In this document: positions 2,817-27,071 of the stretch, one piece after another
How the letters are laid out: each line of letters opens with the position of its first letter
Position numbering within the stretch: the first letter of the stretch is position 1
Virus record (IMG/VR): IMGVR_UViG_3300031576_000247
Coordinates: 1-27,344 of that record
Length of the DNA stretch: 27,344 nucleotides
Direction: 5' to 3' (one strand)
Source: a virus
Notes under the pieces: generated by a model
The model's database searches: none
What the model was told of the DNA's origin: nothing
Seen by the model: the letters and a program-made list of their open reading frames with translations, nothing else
Made by a program: the position numbers and the translations under genes

Positions 2817-3490
2817 TAAGCTCTCCCCGCTTCCTGCAACACTTGCTTGTGCTCGGTGAACGCTTCGCCCACCGCGTCCGGGTGGCGCGACAGGATCGTG
2901 ACGTACGTGACGCTCGAGGGAGCACCGCCCATGCGTGCGCCGCCCAGCGGGATCGCCGTGAACAGCTCGGGGCCCCTGTCGCCCACGATGACCGGCGTGG
3001 GCTGGGTCGCAACGAATGAGCCGCCCTCGCCCATGACCTTGAAGCCGGCCGCGGCCCCGCCCGCGACTATCGCGAGACCCGCGATGATGCCGCCCGCGAC
3101 GGCGGGTGCGATGATGCCGCCCGCGGCCGTTTCGGCCGCCGCCTGTCCCCATTTTGTCGCGGTCACGATTTTGGAGATCGTGTCATAGAGCTGGAGGCCT
3201 GCGCTCAAGCTCTGGATCGCGGCCTGCACGCCACGCACGCCGCGCGTCCAATCCTGGTTTCCCTTGCCCACGATCTCGAGCGCGCGGAACACGCCCATCA
3301 GGCCGGATCGGAGCTGCATCAGGGATGACCGAGTGAACACGTCCGTCTTGCGCGTCGTGGCCTCGATCTCCGCGCCGGCCATGTGCACGTTCTGCCTCAG
3401 GTTCGAGACGTGGTCCGCGACCTCGTCGAACGCTTCGACGCCTTCGGCACGGCCCCGTATGAGCGCCTCGAGCTCCTCCGTGTACACCAT
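2816..3490 (-). CDS. Tape-measure-like tail protein, second copy (C-terminal type)
   Basis: 224 residues, start ATG overlapping the previous stop (TGATG). A helical N-terminal half (EELEALIRGRAEGVEAFDEVADHVSNLRQ) leads into a Gly/Ala-rich hydrophobic stretch at about 125-155 (GGIIAPAVAGGIIAGLAIV). A tail of the type GGSFVATQPTPVIVGDRGPE follows; this ending, with VGDRGPE, is typical of the C-termini of siphovirus tape-measure proteins. At 224 residues it is far shorter than most tape measures (usually above 600). It pairs with the gene just upstream, which has a related helical-plus-hydrophobic plan. The two may act together as one tape measure, or one may be a tail-tip component. Confidence 0.6.
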   Translation of the reverse strand: MVYTEELEALIRGRAEGVEAFDEVADHVSNLRQNVHMAGAEIEATTRKTDVFTRSSLMQLRSGLMGVFRALEIVGKGNQDWTRGVRGVQAAIQSLSAGLQLYDTISKIVTATKWGQAAAETAAGGIIAPAVAGGIIAGLAIVAGGAAAGFKVMGEGGSFVATQPTPVIVGDRGPELFTAIPLGGARMGGAPSSVTYVTILSRHPDAVGEAFTEHKQVLQEAGRA

Positions 3491-9255: not shown

Positions 9256-9722
9256 CAGGCCACCTCCTCCGGCTCAGGTTCCTCGGCCTTCTTGACCGGC
9301 GTCTTCTCCTTCGTCGCTGGCTCCTTCTCCTTCGTCGCTGGCTCCTTCTCCTTCGGGGGCGGTGCGGGCCTGGGCTTCGGGCGCTTGACGTCGGACACGA
9401 TCTCCCACAGCTCGTGGTTCGCGGCCGCCTTGTTGCGCCAGAACTCGGCGTTCACCGGGCACGTGACGTCGACCGGCCGGCCCGCGACGAAGCGGTACTC
9501 GGCGGGCTGCGGGTACTGGGGCCCGGTCTCCGCGGTCTCCTGCGCCGCGTAGTGCTCGGCCCCATGGCAGTTTGCGCGCCCCGTCTCCTGTCCCGAGACG
9601 CGATCGGTCGAGATCACGATACCGCGGCAGCGTGCACGGTGCACGACGGGGGCAGCCGTCGGTCCCGTGAAGCGCACCACCACGAGGACTCGGGAGCCCT
9701 CCGGTGTCTTCCTCCGTGGCAT
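9255..9722 (-). CDS. Capsid-adjacent protein with KEKEPAT repeats
   Basis: 155 residues; ATG preceded by GGAGATC. The body has three Cys residues and mixed strands (SRVLVVVRFTGPT, VHRARCRGIVISTDR, GRPVDVTCPVNAEFW). From about residue 113 it becomes a low-complexity Pro/Lys/Glu tail containing KEKEPAT repeated, which matches a 21-bp tandem repeat in the DNA. The unfolded, charged tail directly after the capsid gene suggests a virion or assembly role. The family is not recognised. Repeat number may vary between relatives. Confidence 0.55.
   Translation of the reverse strand: MPRRKTPEGSRVLVVVRFTGPTAAPVVHRARCRGIVISTDRVSGQETGRANCHGAEHYAAQETAETGPQYPQPAEYRFVAGRPVDVTCPVNAEFWRNKAAANHELWEIVSDVKRPKPRPAPPPKEKEPATKEKEPATKEKTPVKKAEEPEPEEVA
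9303..9355 (-). repeat. 21-bp tandem repeat, about 2.5 copies
   Basis: Two identical 21-bp units (9303-9323 and 9324-9344) are followed by 11 bases of a third. In frame they encode the KEKEPAT repeats of the protein after the capsid gene. Being a multiple of three, the unit can expand or contract without breaking the gene. Confidence 0.85.
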
Positions 9723-12205: not shown

Positions 12206-13963
12206 TTAGGCCGGGAACGAGACCGGATTCATGCCACGTACGAACGCGATCGCCTCGTTCTCGGACAGGCCTTCGTCCACGAGACACTTGATGAGCGCGT
12301 CCTCGTCGTCTCGGCTCTCGTCGAGCACGTCCTGGCACTCGTCGATCGCGGTCAGGACCGTGTCGCTCCAATCCTTGCCCTCGATCTCGCGCCGGATCTC
12401 GGCGCAGTACGCGTCGGGATCGTCTGCCTGCGGATTCTGGGCCACGCAGTCGTCATGGTCCGAGTAGCCCGCGAACGGCTTGCTCCCCATGGCCTTGCCC
12501 GGATAGGCCTCGAGCAAACGTCGTGCTTCGTCCACGTCGACGCCGTAGTTGTGGGCGCATCCCTCGATCGCGAAATCGTCCGTGTCGGAGCCGAGGCAGG
12601 CACGCAGGAGGTCCGCAAGGCCAGCGTCGTCCGTCACATCGGCGCCTTTGTCGTAGCCATGTTCTGAGACGCAGTCCTCGAGAGCGTCCACGTCGTCCAG
12701 GCTGAACGTGCCCTCACGGGTCAGGCTGAGACCGGCGAGGCAGTCGTCGATCACCGTATCCGGGACGTATCGGTAGCGAGCGAGGACCTCGCCTGACCCG
12801 AAGTCCTCCTCGCGCTCCCCGTTCTTCGATTTGCCGAAATCGTTCTCGAACGAGACCGGATCTTCGCGCCACCACCGCAGGCATTGCTCCGTCCACGCTT
12901 CCTCGAGCTCCTCACGTCCCATGCCGTCTTCGTTCGGGTCCGCATTCATCGAGTCCTGCGTGCATCGGTTCCACGTGTCCGTGTCCGGATACTCGAACTG
13001 TTTGTACCGCTCGTTGAAGCCGTCGGGATCGTCGAGCCATTCCTGTGAGCACGCGATGCGTGCGCCAGCTTCGCTGAAGCCCGTCGCCATGTAGCCGTCG
13101 ACGCACGCTTGGACGAGCTCGGGCGGCAGCGTGTCCCATTCGGTCTCGTGCGTCTTGTCCGTGCCGCTCAGGCCCTGGTCCGTCAGGAACGTGTCCACGA
13201 TCTCGGCGTGGTCCCCGCTCACGTTTCCATCTTCCAGCGCCTGCCTTAGGCAACGCTCGAGCGCAGCTTGATCGTCGGCCGCGTCCGCGAGGCACGCAGG
13301 GTATGCATCGTTGAGCAGGTCGCTCTCCGGGTCCTTCGCGCTCTTGGCCCCCGTGACGCGTGCGACGTCCGCATCGGGATTCGCGCCACCCGGCATCGCA
13401 CCGACCCAGCCCACGGCGAACAGGCCCATGTCGCGCACGACCTTGTGGCACGTCTCGTTCTCGCACTCGATCACGGCGTCCCAGGTGCCGCGGATCGAGG
13501 ATTCGGCTTGCGTGCCCACCTCCTGCATCTCGGTCCACACGCGATCGAACAGCTCGCCCAGCGCCTTCGTCGTGCCTGGCGGAGGCCAGTCCGCGGAGTA
13601 CACGCCGACCTTGACCTGGGGCTGGATCTTCTTCGTCTTCGGGTTCAGGGCCATGCGGAAGCCCAGATAGCGCCCGATCGGGATGCCCTCGTGCAGGTAC
13701 TCGTAGAAACCGTGCACGAGGAGCCAGGGGGCCGAATCGAGGATCTCCTCGGTCGGAACTTTCTCCTGTTGCTTGTCGATGCGACGCGACGAGATGAATG
13801 TGTCCGTGACGCGCCCGTTTTCCCATGCGGCCTCCGGGATCAGGACGTGCCACTCGGTCGCCTCGAGTGCGCCCGTCTCCACGGCGCGCTTCTTGACCTT
13901 GTCCACGTATTCGATGAGCTTCGAGTGGTCCAATTGGAGCGGTTCGAGCGCGGCCTCGGCCAT
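12206..13963 (-). CDS. Candidate prohead maturation protease with array of Cys-paired modules
   Basis: 585 residues. The first 200 or so (TEWHVLIPEAAWENGRV, the following LLVHGFYEYLHEGIPIGRY, then MALNPKTKKIQPQVKVGVYS, EVGTQAESSIRGTWDA) resemble XkdF/S78-like prohead proteases, with a His near 110 and a Ser near 178 as possible catalytic residues. From about 230 on it carries at least five short acidic modules, each with paired Cys (ERCLRQALED, QACVDGYMATGFSEAGARIAC, WNRCTQDSMN..EQCLRWW, DDCLAGLSL..EDCVSEHG, DDCVAQNPQADDPDAYCAEI). The last type is common at the ends of phage head proteins. The ATG is exactly 26.5 bases from a CTCAAG box. It is placed two genes before the capsid gene. The protease call needs structural confirmation. 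Confidence 0.5.
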   Translation of the reverse strand: MAEAALEPLQLDHSKLIEYVDKVKKRAVETGALEATEWHVLIPEAAWENGRVTDTFISSRRIDKQQEKVPTEEILDSAPWLLVHGFYEYLHEGIPIGRYLGFRMALNPKTKKIQPQVKVGVYSADWPPPGTTKALGELFDRVWTEMQEVGTQAESSIRGTWDAVIECENETCHKVVRDMGLFAVGWVGAMPGGANPDADVARVTGAKSAKDPESDLLNDAYPACLADAADDQAALERCLRQALEDGNVSGDHAEIVDTFLTDQGLSGTDKTHETEWDTLPPELVQACVDGYMATGFSEAGARIACSQEWLDDPDGFNERYKQFEYPDTDTWNRCTQDSMNADPNEDGMGREELEEAWTEQCLRWWREDPVSFENDFGKSKNGEREEDFGSGEVLARYRYVPDTVIDDCLAGLSLTREGTFSLDDVDALEDCVSEHGYDKGADVTDDAGLADLLRACLGSDTDDFAIEGCAHNYGVDVDEARRLLEAYPGKAMGSKPFAGYSDHDDCVAQNPQADDPDAYCAEIRREIEGKDWSDTVLTAIDECQDVLDESRDDEDALIKCLVDEGLSENEAIAFVRGMNPVSFPA

Positions 13964-14007: not shown

Positions 14008-14880
14008 CTAAACGTTCAGCAGGTCGTCCTGGGAGTACGTTTCCTCGGTCTCGCCTACGAGCAAGTGCACGGTGCCGTCAGGGTCTATTGATTGCACAAT
14101 GCCGATTGCTCCGCTTGGCGTGAACACTTCCTCACCGACCTCGAACGCCGGTTTGGCCGCGTCTTGTGTGGGCACCGCCTGTTCCTCGATCTTCCCGTAG
14201 AGCGATTCGAACGTCTGAGGATCTTCCTCACGCTGGTTCAGGCAAGCGTCGCGTGCGAATCCCTCGTCCGTGTAGGCTTCGCCGCCATCGTGGATCTCGG
14301 GGTCCATCAAGGACGAGACGCAGCGCTCGATCGCTTCGTCTTCCTTCGGCACGGCCTCCTCCGGCGCGACCGCGGACTCTGATTCGAGTGCGGCCTCGAG
14401 CGCGGCCTGTTCTGGCGCGGGGGCCGCGGGCTCGGGCGCCGTCAGGATCGTCATGGACCATTCGTCGGCCGGCACGGTGCGGCCGTCCGCGAGCTGCACG
14501 ATGTACCGCGGATACAGCACGTTGGGCGCGGGCGGGTCGTACGCGATCTCCGTCACGGTCGCGTGCTGCCCGTGCAGCGATTCGGCGTCGGGCGAGCTCG
14601 GCATATTCAGCATGACCTCGGTCCCGACGTCGAAGCGGGGCGGGATGCGCACCTCCTCCTGCTTCTCGTACACCGGGGCCTCCTTCTGGCTCGAGGCCAC
14701 GATCGCCGCGAGGATCGCGCTCAGGTCGATGCCCTCCGTGACCTCGAGCACGCCGGCCACCTGGGCGCCGTTCGCGTCCGTCAGCATGACCTGCACTTGG
14801 CTCGGTTTCGCCGTCTCCTCCTTCTGGCTCAGGAGCGCATGGTTGAGGCGTCGCTGCTCGAGTTCGCTCAAGGCTTGCAT
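14008..14880 (-). CDS. Head-region protein with two SH3-like barrels and a Cys module; source of an inverted duplication
   Basis: 290 residues. It has a helical start, then a barrel-like segment at about 80-145 (RFDVGTEVMLN, HATVTEIAYDPPAPN, YIVQLADGRTVPADEW) and an Ala/Pro/Glu linker. A Cys-paired module at about 184-230 (AIERCVSSLMDPEIHD, FARDACLNQREEDPQTFESLYG) leads to a second barrel at the C-terminus (FEVGEEVFTPSGAIGIVQSIDPDG). The Cys module is of the same kind as those in the next gene, so the two probably work in the same part of the head. Positions 14281-14379, covering the linker and module start, recur inverted inside the uracil-DNA glycosylase gene. The ATG is exactly 26.5 bases from CTCAAG. 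Exact function is not known. Confidence 0.6.
   Translation of the reverse strand: MQALSELEQRRLNHALLSQKEETAKPSQVQVMLTDANGAQVAGVLEVTEGIDLSAILAAIVASSQKEAPVYEKQEEVRIPPRFDVGTEVMLNMPSSPDAESLHGQHATVTEIAYDPPAPNVLYPRYIVQLADGRTVPADEWSMTILTAPEPAAPAPEQAALEAALESESAVAPEEAVPKEDEAIERCVSSLMDPEIHDGGEAYTDEGFARDACLNQREEDPQTFESLYGKIEEQAVPTQDAAKPAFEVGEEVFTPSGAIGIVQSIDPDGTVHLLVGETEETYSQDDLLNV
14281..14379 (-). repeat. Inverted repeat, head-gene copy (99 bp)
   Basis: These 99 bases match the reverse complement of 26273-26371 at 98 positions. The single difference is at 14358, where this copy encodes Glu (GAG) and the other would read TAG in the same sense. Similarity continues weakly to the left through GTCC(A/G)TGTAGGC, interrupted by a 3-base gap. 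This copy lies in a protein with related modules next door, so it is probably the original. Confidence 0.95.
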
Positions 14881-22810: not shown

Positions 22811-22944
22811 TCCTTGTGCACCACGACCTGGGACACGGAATCAACCATGGCGCGTCTCTCCTCGGGTTCGACGTGGACCGAGATATCCTGGATCGGCATC
22901 CGGCACACGTGACACAGGAACACGACGTGCACGTGCTGTCTCAT
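22765..22944 (-). CDS. 59-residue Cys-rich protein
   Basis: The ATG overlaps the stop of the small terminase gene (ATGA). MRQHVHVVFLCHVCRMPIQD gives one CxxC; a second Cys lies in VVVHKECTGTPH, so a metal site with His is likely. It bridges an otherwise empty stretch between the small terminase and HNH genes. Function unknown. Confidence 0.6.
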   Translation of the reverse strand: MRQHVHVVFLCHVCRMPIQDISVHVEPEERRAMVDSVSQVVVHKECTGTPHLDAALGRS

Positions 22945-23579
22945 GGGTCTCCCGCAGGCAATGCCTCGAGCGCGCGCTTCCGCATCTGGTCCAACGTGCC
23001 TTTGGTCCCCTCGGGATCGTCACGCAGGACCGCGTCCACGATGAACTGGACCGCGACCGTGTCCACGTGGCCCTCGACCTGCAGTTTGTCCGGGGCCTTC
23101 GGCAGGACCCCGAAGCGCTGCAGGAGCCCGATGTGCCTGTCCGTGCGCTCCACGATGTCGTCGAACAGGCCCTGCCTCCGCTCGACGCTGCGCAAGCGCA
23201 GATCGTAGGTCCGGATGTCCACGTCGGCCTTCTGTCGCGGCGTGAGCCCGTCGACCTCGTTCACGAGCTTGGCCTGGTCGCGCACGTCCTCGGCCTCGCC
23301 CACGAGACCGTGGAGCTCGCGTATGGCCGATTCGAACGTCGCGTTCGCGAGCATGACCCAGAACGTGGGGTCGCGTTGGGTCAGCTTGATCTGCATCTCC
23401 TTGCGGATCGCGGCCAGGTCCGCGTAGATCGTGGTGAAATGGACGTCGAACTGGATCGCGACCTTCTTCACTTCGATCTCGGTCGGCTGCCCCGCGGTCC
23501 TCGCGAGGAACTGCATCAGGAGGCGACGCCGCGTGTTCGTCTCGAGCTTCTGTTCCTTGACCGGCTCTACGGCGGCCAT
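22941..23579 (-). CDS. Small terminase subunit (probable)
   Basis: 212 residues from an ATG with CGGAG eight bases upstream; an in-frame ATG 18 bases earlier (MDAGVG) lacks a ribosome site. The N-terminus looks like a helix-turn-helix (TRRRLLMQFLARTAG, EIEVKKVAIQFDVHFTTIYADLAAIRKEM). It is followed by long charged helices (RTYDLRLRSVERRQGLFDDIVERTDRHIGLL) of the type that form the oligomer, and a C-terminal segment that could contact the large subunit. Gene order (just upstream of HNH and terL) and architecture agree with a small terminase that recognises viral DNA. Confidence 0.65.
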   Translation of the reverse strand: MAAVEPVKEQKLETNTRRRLLMQFLARTAGQPTEIEVKKVAIQFDVHFTTIYADLAAIRKEMQIKLTQRDPTFWVMLANATFESAIRELHGLVGEAEDVRDQAKLVNEVDGLTPRQKADVDIRTYDLRLRSVERRQGLFDDIVERTDRHIGLLQRFGVLPKAPDKLQVEGHVDTVAVQFIVDAVLRDDPEGTKGTLDQMRKRALEALPAGDP

Positions 23580-23767
23580 TCCAACTCCGGCGTCCATTCG
23601 GGCCCGAGCGTGAGGTAGCCCGACGCGTTCTGCACCTGGTGCTTACACGCGGGGCACCTCGTGAGCGGTGTGCTCGTGTTCATGTTCAGGGAGAGGCACT
23701 CGGTGCACGCGCATGGTGAGGGCACGGCGGCCGTGCTGGGCACGTTCTGCACGCAGCTCAGGCACAC
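23567..23767 (-). CDS. 66-residue zinc-ribbon protein, first gene of the packaging operon
   Basis: GTG start (CLSCVQNVPS) exactly 26.5 bases from the CTTAAG box, so translated from a leaderless transcript. The sequence holds CLSC, CACTEC and RCPACKHQ, enough Cys for one or two zinc sites. It ends ELEWPP and overlaps the small terminase frame slightly. As the first gene after a strong promoter, it may be a regulator or a packaging accessory; the family is not recognised. Confidence 0.65.
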   Translation of the reverse strand: MCLSCVQNVPSTAAVPSPCACTECLSLNMNTSTPLTRCPACKHQVQNASGYLTLGPEWTPELEWPP

Positions 23768-23837: not shown

Positions 23838-23910
23838 TAGCCCCGGCCTGCTTCGAACAGACGTCACCCGACCCAGGATCGAGGATGCTTGGCCTCTACA
23901 CCACGGGGCT
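23838..23910 (-). tRNA. tRNA-Gln (CUG anticodon)
   Basis: 73 bases fold into a complete cloverleaf. The acceptor is AGCCCCG/CGGGGCT with discriminator A, and the D-stem is GTGT/GCAT with A14, GG and A21 in the loop. The anticodon stem is CTCGA/TCGGG around TCCTGGG, the variable region is TGAC, and the T-stem is GTCTG/CAGGC around TTCGAAG. U8, A14, G15 and C48 are all in place. The anticodon reads CUG, and the weak A1-U72 pair is typical of Gln. Base 33 is C instead of the near-universal U, a real oddity. CCA is not encoded. No intron. A TATA-like TTTTTA is centred 26.5 bases before the first tRNA base. Confidence 0.9.
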
Positions 23911-24247: not shown

Positions 24248-24253
24248 CTTAAC
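24248..24253 (-). promoter_or_regulatory. TATA-like box of the 66-residue gene
   Basis: The minus strand reads AGGGGTTAAGCC; the TAA in it is also the stop codon of the YkgJ-like gene. The centre is 26.5 bases before the ATG at 24224. Confidence 0.55.
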
Positions 24254-24704
24254 CCCTTCGACGCCGCCACGCTCGTATGGCCCGGTCTCGCTTTCGCCAA
24301 ATCGCGAAGGCCGCGCGCTTCGTGATGCGAACGAACCTGTACGAGCACACGTTGCGCACGACCTGATAATGGCCGTCCGACGGCGTCGACGGGAACTGGT
24401 AGCACACGGCCGGCTTCACTTTCTGGATCCCGCACAGCAACCCCTTGAGCTGCGCGCACGGCTTCTCGAACCACCACGTCTTCGCTCGCTTGAGGTAGTG
24501 CACGGTGCGCACGCCGAGCACGGCCGCCATGTACCGCGTGTGCTCCCGGCCCCCGCCCGACACGATGCGGCAGCACGCGGCCCCGCACAGGTCGGGCTTG
24601 CACGATCCGACCCGCTTGAAGTATCCGTGTGCCGCGTACACGACGTAGGGCTCCCAGATCGTGAAGCTGTATGGCGTGCCCGGCGGCGGCTTCACGAGAT
24701 TCAT
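24249..24704 (-). CDS. YkgJ-like CxxxxCxxxCC protein (metal or Fe-S binding)
   Basis: 151 residues, ATG overlapping the methyltransferase stop (ATGA). The key motif is SCKPDLCGAACCRIV followed by GREHTRYMAAVLG, then PCAQLKGLLCGIQKVKPAVCYQFP, the layout of the YkgJ family of zinc- or iron-cluster-binding proteins (PF03692). In cells such proteins bind metal through eight Cys; their role in viruses is not settled, and repair or modification of macromolecules has been proposed. A basic tail (IWRKRDRAIRAWRRRRG) suggests nucleic-acid contact. Confidence 0.7.
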   Translation of the reverse strand: MNLVKPPPGTPYSFTIWEPYVVYAAHGYFKRVGSCKPDLCGAACCRIVSGGGREHTRYMAAVLGVRTVHYLKRAKTWWFEKPCAQLKGLLCGIQKVKPAVCYQFPSTPSDGHYQVVRNVCSYRFVRITKRAAFAIWRKRDRAIRAWRRRRG

Positions 24705-25216
24705 GCGCGGCCTCGGGGACCGCGCCTGTCCGTGAGCCAAGGCTCCCAACGGCGCCACAGGTTGAGACATCGTACGACCGAATCACGCCCGCACAGGAGC
24801 AGGATCGTGGCCTCGCGCCGCCACGGATCGGACCTCACGAACGGCACGTGAACGTCGCGCACGTGGAGCACGGCGAGGCGCTCCGAGCTCACGCGCGCGA
24901 CCTCGCGCACCGCCTTCTTGTACGGCACGTCGTATGGCGGATCGAAGAAGGTGCACCGGAACGCGCGGTCCCTGAACGGCAGACGATTCATGTCGGCCAC
25001 GATGTCGGGGCGCCATTTGCGTTCGATGTCGACGCGGACCCCGTGCACGCGCTGCGTCCTATCGCACACGTAGACGTCGGGCTCGTACCCGAACTCGCGC
25101 AGGATTCCGGGCACGTGCTGCGGCGTGTTCCAGCCGCGCCCGAATCCTGCGAACCTGGCCTGCAGGACCCAGCCTACCGTATGCGCGTCACCGAGTTCGG
25201 GTCGTCTCCGTACCAC
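24701..25216 (-). CDS. Short DPPY-type methyltransferase-like protein
   Basis: About 171 residues. The active-site motif is FRCTFFDPPYDVPYKKAVREVARV. Before it lie GRGWNTPQHVPGILREF and DIVADMNRLPFRDRAF, which match the region before motif IV in class I methyltransferases. The usual glycine motif I for SAM binding is weak or missing. No ATG is suitable: the start given is a GTG inside the preceding gene (43-base overlap), and the true start may be nearer GWVLQARFAGFGRG. It could modify viral DNA (adenine or cytosine N4). Followed directly by the YkgJ-like gene with an ATGA overlap. Confidence 0.6.
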   Translation of the reverse strand: MVRRRPELGDAHTVGWVLQARFAGFGRGWNTPQHVPGILREFGYEPDVYVCDRTQRVHGVRVDIERKWRPDIVADMNRLPFRDRAFRCTFFDPPYDVPYKKAVREVARVSSERLAVLHVRDVHVPFVRSDPWRREATILLLCGRDSVVRCLNLWRRWEPWLTDRRGPRGRA

Positions 25217-26084: not shown

Positions 26085-26758
26085 GTGTGCCCCCTCGACG
26101 TCCGTTCTTGACCCCCTTTTGATACCCGTTTGACATCTTTTTGATATCCGTTTGACACATCGTGGGCAAGTGCACGCCAGGGCGCAATCTGAAAGTGGGG
26201 ACGAGCGGCCGGACTCGTGGACGGCATAACCCACACGTCGGCGTGGTTGAAGGTGCCGATCGAGCCGTAGCTGAGTCCGCGGTCGCGCCGGAGTAGGCCG
26301 TGCCGAAGGAAGACGAAGCGATCGAGCGCTGCGTCTCGTCCTTGATGGACCCCGAGATCCACGATGGCGGCGCCTACATGGACGTCGAACGGCTCGAGAC
26401 CTTCGCGTGCCGCGCGCAGGCTCGTGAACGCGAGGCGCGCCGGACGGTACACACCGATCTTGCGCCACAGCATGGCCGGGTCGAACGCGTGGCGCGGGAT
26501 CTTCGCGTCCATCCCCTTCGCCGTCTTGCACACGTCGGTCAGGCCGAGGCCGTATCTCAGGATGAACACGTAGTCCTCGGGCGCGACAAGCCGCGGCGTC
26601 AAGCCCACCTCGTGCAGCGTGGGCCAGAACCTGTTCTGCGGGTTCCCGTAGTAGGCGCGGACACGCGCGCTCGTCAGGCTCGGGGCCGTGCCGCAGAACA
26701 CGACGTCGAGGCCGGGCTGGAGCACGTCGGGCAAGACGTAGGGCTCAGGTCGTGCCAT
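26081..26758 (-). CDS. MUG/TDG-type uracil-DNA glycosylase with an inserted antisense segment
   Basis: 225 residues; ATG eight bases after AAGGAGGG. The MUG-type core is clear: GLDVVFCGTAPSLTSARVRAYYG, NPQNRFWPTLHEVGLTPRL, ILRYGLGLTDVCKTAKG and, near the end, the DNA-binding loop VWVMPSTSPAARPHF. Between FDVHVGA and LSYGSIG lie about 33 extra residues (AAIVDLGVHQGRDAALDR, FVFLRHGLLRRDRG). These come from a 99-bp inverted copy of the head gene at 14281-14379, read in the antisense frame without a stop. A basic C-terminal tail is encoded by two 22-bp repeats. The enzyme would remove uracil or related bases from mismatches; whether the insertion leaves it active cannot be judged from sequence. 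Confidence 0.75.
   Translation of the reverse strand: MARPEPYVLPDVLQPGLDVVFCGTAPSLTSARVRAYYGNPQNRFWPTLHEVGLTPRLVAPEDYVFILRYGLGLTDVCKTAKGMDAKIPRHAFDPAMLWRKIGVYRPARLAFTSLRAAREGLEPFDVHVGAAIVDLGVHQGRDAALDRFVFLRHGLLRRDRGLSYGSIGTFNHADVWVMPSTSPAARPHFQIAPWRALAHDVSNGYQKDVKRVSKGGQERTSRGHT
26103..26157 (-). repeat. 22-bp repeats, about 2.5 copies
   Basis: On the minus strand TGTCAAACGG(A/G)TATCAAAA repeats with a 22-base period (26136-26157 and 26114-26135), and a decayed third copy (GGTCAAGAACGG) follows. It is the most AT-rich stretch nearby, in contrast to its surroundings. It encodes the basic tail of the uracil-DNA glycosylase (SNGYQKDVKRVSKGG). Confidence 0.75.
26273..26371 (+). repeat. Inverted repeat, glycosylase-gene copy (99 bp)
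   Basis: Matches the reverse complement of 14281-14379 at 98 of 99 positions. Here the plus strand carries the sense of the head gene, but GAG has become TAG, so the head-protein frame is broken, while the minus-strand frame of the glycosylase is open throughout. 99 is divisible by three, so the host gene keeps its frame. Confidence 0.95.
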
Positions 26759-27071
26759 CTCCCTCCTTCTCGTTCTGGATTTGCGCCAGGCGTTCGAGCG
26801 CCAGATCGCATACCTTGGACAGGACCATGCCGAGCGCGCGCACATCCTGGCCTGATGCGGCGTAGCCCAGGACGGACGAGAACAGGCTGATGTCGGACGT
26901 GACGAGCTGCGTCGGCTTCACGCCGGCCGCGAGCACGGCTTGGGCCGCGGCGAACCGGCCCACGAACGGGACCACGAAGCGCTTGCGCCGTGTCTTTTGC
27001 ACAATCGCCGTGAGCGCCTTCTTCGTCGCGCCGGGCGGGATCCCGGAGAAGATGTCACCGAGCTGTGCCAT
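26745..27071 (-). CDS. Short methyltransferase-like protein (N-terminal part of a family)
   Basis: 108 residues, ATG inside the end of the preceding gene. RFVVPFVGRFAAAQAVLAAG then QLVTSDISLFSSVLGYAASGQDV recalls the SAM-binding beginning of phage DNA methyltransferase-like proteins (strand, glycine-rich turn, helix, then the acidic end of strand 2 with SDIS). The catalytic half expected after it is missing; the protein ends in a helix (MVLSKVCDLALERLAQIQ). It may be a truncated relict or a separate regulator. The stop overlaps the glycosylase by 14 bases. Confidence 0.45.
   Translation of the reverse strand: MAQLGDIFSGIPPGATKKALTAIVQKTRRKRFVVPFVGRFAAAQAVLAAGVKPTQLVTSDISLFSSVLGYAASGQDVRALGMVLSKVCDLALERLAQIQNEKEGDGTT

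Follow-up and report, generated by a model that had tools for sequence, protein, structure and literature searches.

The locus analysed here raises the question of how a phage gene for a DNA glycosylase came to carry, in its own reading frame, a segment of a head gene in reverse orientation, and whether this took place in the phage or in the laboratory. The window, i.e., the whole IMG/VR record, comprises 27,344 bases at 66% GC. Within it, the segment in the glycosylase gene is an ungapped reverse complement of a head-gene segment at 99 of 100 positions (Table 1), composed of two exact blocks of 78 bp and 21 bp, and a near-identical donor, one of the marks of a templated insertion, is thus present elsewhere in the same genome. 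The first-pass annotation had placed this copy at 26273-26371, opposite 14281-14379, with 98 of 99 bases identical and the glycosylase frame kept, and coordinates, identity and frame were all confirmed. The two copies lie 11.9 kb (~12 kb) apart, and when a 3-base gap is allowed, the similarity between copy and donor extends through GTCC(A/G)TGTAGGC. Simulated contigs yielded longest exact inverted matches of 14-24 bp (20 of 40 period-3 Markov simulations listed), so that a chance origin of a copy with an exact block of 78 bp is excluded. Weak further matches of the copied region occur at 3426-3454 and 23439-23466 (28-30 bases, 87-89% identity), for which the sole exact block listed is 14 bp long and ordinary under the simulated null. 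Inside the contig, exact matches of 13 bp or more were about twice as frequent as in the simulations (inverted, 54 vs 29; direct, 76 vs 31), an excess that perhaps reflects codon usage and the recurrence of head-gene motifs.

Table 1. Positions of the inverted copy, its donor, the junctions and the two genes involved, numbered from the first base of the window.
Feature	Position	Strand	Remarks
Inverted copy of head-gene segment in glycosylase gene	26273..26372	-	99/100; probable net insertion 93 nt, ~26276-26368
Donor segment, antisense strand of head gene	14280..14379	+	Reverse-complement match 99/100
Sole mismatch between copies, CTC to CTA	26294..26294	-	Silent in glycosylase (Leu to Leu); GAG to TAG in head frame
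Left-junction microhomology GTCCATGTAGGC, native to glycosylase (codons V-H-V-G)	26372..26383	-	
Matching donor sequence GTCCGTGTAGGC, then TTC, then GCCGCC	14266..14277	+	
Right-junction microhomology CTC (Leu of native LSYG; donor CTC at 14377-14379)	26273..26275	-	
Mug-type uracil/mismatch-specific DNA glycosylase with insertion, 225 aa	26081..26758	-	Pfam UDG and 2c2p matches
Donor gene, 290 aa, in head-gene block between genes for minor and major head proteins	14008..14880	-	

The recipient gene encodes a glycosylase of the Mug/TDG type (family 2 uracil-DNA glycosylases), as judged from sequence matches, the predicted MUG fold, the active-site motifs and the catalytic Asp. Its product matches Pfam UDG (E 2e-11), D. 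radiodurans MUG (2c2p; E 7e-45) and E. coli Mug (E 6e-15), and its N-terminal part is 58% identical to D. radiodurans MUG, in alignment with which the GTAPS and PSTSP motifs are intact. Residue D84, invariant in 45 aligned sequences, is the equivalent of D. radiodurans MUG Asp93, which we take to be the catalytic residue of that enzyme; 2c2q, described in its PDB title as an inactive mutant, differs from 2c2p at the Asp93 position. In an AlphaFold2 model of the phage protein (overall pLDDT 71.7), values are mostly 70-90 outside the insert, whereas residues 127-170 fall below 50 and lack secondary structure, and the top PDB fold match of the model is again 2c2p (Foldseek E 5.6e-18, TM 0.65/0.79). 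The simplest reading of this model is that the insert may form a disordered additional loop on an otherwise sound Mug-like fold, a loop that the glycosylase would appear to tolerate. Hence, the phage enzyme resembles D. radiodurans MUG (2c2p, 2c2q) in N-terminal sequence, Asp93 equivalent and fold, but differs from it in having an insert at this loop. Two further observations were made at the ends of the gene. At 26108-26160, within the final glycosylase codons, there are ~22-bp tandem repeats (2.3 copies, TTTGATAYCCGTTTGACA-like) that are AT-richer than the rest of this 66% GC genome and are possibly an operator/promoter region or a repeat-derived C-terminal tail. At 26745-27071, a 108-aa ORF overlaps the glycosylase start and matches only the first quarter of a DAM-like-phage1 methylase domain (profile positions 1-73 of 274).

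The site as it was before the insertion can be read from the homologues. The insert splits the glycosylase match to 2c2p in two, and joining the flanks gives one unbroken match, raising the score from 156.5 to 165.6 bits. While the window reads VHVG-A-(31 aa)-LSYG, the joined flanks read VHVG-A-LSYG and align with VPTG-K-LPYG of D. radiodurans MUG; therefore, the relatives have an empty target site and no target sequence was lost. None of 88 glycosylase homologues contains the inserted sequence, and their loops at this position are 10-25 residues long, with the exception of one Clostridia protein (L059, 3001-3621) that carries its own, unrelated 64-residue stretch in the same loop. This exception indicates natural length variation and a loop that can accommodate extra residues. 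An insertion native to the glycosylase family was rejected, as the homologues are without it. The scanned viral contigs gave no close relative or second carrier with the glycosylase, the glycosylase profile, the terminase, the major head protein, the donor protein, the portal protein, the 45-base copied stretch or a degenerate empty site as queries; the one distant glycosylase fragment (L093) obtained from these scans was of no help.

The empty site in D. radiodurans MUG identifies the head gene as the donor. The same direction of transfer follows from the donor side, since the donor stretch, read in the head-gene frame, belongs to a Cys-containing motif found again in the neighbouring head gene at 12206-13963 (E 7e-4). 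Head gene as donor and glycosylase gene as recipient, as had been assumed at the outset, are hence in agreement with both lines of evidence. For the donor protein, neither a family assignment nor a match among phage records was obtained. All clear genes between the two copies are on the minus strand. Elsewhere in the window, a tRNA-Gln (anticodon CTG) is located on the minus strand at 23838-23910, in the gap that separates the genes 22941-23597 and 24249-24770, and a perfect 21-bp tandem repeat (2.5 copies, 9303-9355) encodes a Lys/Glu-rich EPATKEK repeat in an ORF of 155 aa lying downstream of the gene for the major head protein.

Both junctions bear microhomology. At the left junction, the glycosylase and donor sequences agree at 11 of 12 positions, and the donor has three more bases (TTC) before the common GCCGCC. 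The glycosylase version is native to the gene, because in the alignments its V-H-V-G corresponds to V-P-T-G in D. radiodurans MUG and to DVEWG in Rhizobium. When breakpoint pairs were drawn at random, 30 of 300,000 trials (~1 in 10,000) showed a match of 11/12 or better no more than 5 nt away. The shared GTCC(A/G)TGTAGGC first noticed at this junction is real, and it points to template switching, as had been suggested. The other junction has a microhomology of only 3 nt (CTC), which refines the initial description, in which the left junction alone was considered. By the alignment with D. radiodurans MUG, the GCC and CTC at the ends of the insert were probably in the gene before the event, in which case the net gain would be ~31 codons (93 nt) without target loss, as against the loop of 33 residues initially proposed.

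Taken together, these data probably reflect a templated insertion that took place recently in the genome of the phage, by which the glycosylase gene acquired a segment copied from the head gene. During copying of the glycosylase gene, the growing strand would have left its template and paired, via GTCC(A/G)TGTAGGC...GCC, with the head-gene sequence in opposite orientation ~12 kb away; ~93-100 bases of head-gene sequence would then have been copied, and at CTC the strand would have switched back to its point of departure. An inverted head-gene duplicate would result, with the frame kept by chance and ~31 residues added to a glycosylase loop. We infer this double switch of the polymerase from the junctions. 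An improbable variant is that the segment was captured by recombination or repair, i.e., through end joining or through single-strand annealing with a free fragment of phage DNA, rather than by polymerase switching. A short piece of DNA whose two ends bear microhomology could also be joined at a break and, judging from the junctions, would leave an identical final sequence; however, annealing of a 3' end followed by its extension accounts for the long homology on the left (11/12 plus GCC, interrupted by a 3-nt bulge) better than blunt or near-blunt joining does.

The single mismatch between the copies bears on whether the event is real. It would create a stop in the head-gene frame, as would 11 of the 297 possible substitutions, so that a functional head gene is very unlikely to have carried it as a standing variant, and it would have arisen in or with the copy. 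This favours an insertion with its own history, carrying a real mutation, over a laboratory chimera, although it falls short of proof. At very low coverage, C-to-A changes commonly arise from damage or sequencing error, and if coverage was that low, the difference at 26294 could be such an error.

The main rival to a templated insertion in the phage is a laboratory chimera, formed by strand switching during whole-genome or multiple displacement amplification (MDA) or library PCR and then taken up in a low-coverage assembly. A purely computational error is unlikely, given that an assembler can join only what the reads contain and that a single contig resolves both copies; copying by the assembly software alone was rejected since the two resolved copies differ at one base. 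Minor chimeras are, moreover, usually outvoted during assembly, and in the present case an additional error would be required for the mismatch that forms a stop in the donor frame. MDA chimeras nevertheless resemble each junction here, as 85% of the joins are inverted and priming takes place at short stretches of 2-21 complementary bases (PMC1855051). They typically consist of one junction with deletion of the intervening sequence, whereas two junctions at the same codon position were found here with the target intact and nothing lost. In addition, 337 of 406 inverted joins in that study were less than 10 kb apart, and complementarity was much less frequent beyond 10 kb (34.8% vs 93.5%; PMC1855051), whereas the present copies are 11.9 kb apart and share strong microhomology. 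An unusual double MDA chimera is a possible source of the insertion, and laboratory origins as a whole are regarded as unlikely, yet as the most serious of the competing explanations. On balance, a real event in vivo is considered probable, at a level well short of certainty.

It may also be asked whether the insert serves the phage. Selection for it, be it through the loop, through complementarity between glycosylase and head mRNAs or through inversion between the copies, is very improbable. In its favour, the insert leaves the reading frame intact, its single substitution does not change the glycosylase protein, and the two genes share a coding strand, which would make their transcripts complementary at 98 of 99 positions. 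However, one phase in three retains the frame by chance and the donor plus strand is open in all three frames over this stretch, so that the in-frame state is not evidence of selection; the lack of a stop in the antisense direction, correctly recorded in the first-pass annotation, is uninformative for this same reason. Likewise, 28% of substitutions would be silent anyway, and the copies are too recent and too alike for selection to be visible. The more specific functions suggested for the locus fared no better. A new working loop of the enzyme is unsupported, the loop being predicted as disordered (AlphaFold2). The stretch of ~99 bases antisense to the head mRNA exists as complementarity (98/99), but an antisense role is unsupported, the RNA fold of the insert being unremarkable (z-score only -1.55). 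Inversion of the ~12-kb segment is not seen in the contig, which shows the uninverted arrangement, given that the clear genes between the copies share the minus strand. That the glycosylase mRNA damps head-gene expression by forming a duplex, or that recombination between the copies flips the 12-kb packaging/head segment in part of the population, is accordingly hardly to be expected.

Events of this type have been described in other systems. The templated mutations of bacteriophage T4 studied by Schultz, Carver and Drake reportedly differ in size from the ~93-nt insertion found here. They nonetheless represent the closest known process (Schultz, Carver and Drake 2006, via review PMC3016281); as described in that review, they rest on imperfect repeats, whereas the present case is a net insertion of ~93 nt, inverted and from 12 kb away. 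The four-point template switches of great apes (PMC7954356) and the template-switch substitutions in yeast coding DNA (PMC8604942) are alike in involving two switches, a reverse-oriented tract and coding effects, and the insertion fits the four-point model. Those events take place locally, inside a single replication fork or between the arms of inverted repeats, whereas the one in this phage is long-range. It is thus a striking example by its length, distance and in-frame peptide gain, and not a new kind of event.

If the insertion was an amplification chimera, it would serve as a warning that inverted copies of this type inside virus contigs have to be backed by reads. If it is real, a single event gave the phage new coding sequence, taken from the antisense strand of a gene unrelated to the recipient, in a case where the donor, the empty site, the microhomology and the first mutation can all still be read. 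Long-range, inverted, in-frame templated insertions may then be a source of new loops and domains, and would be worth counting across phage genomes.
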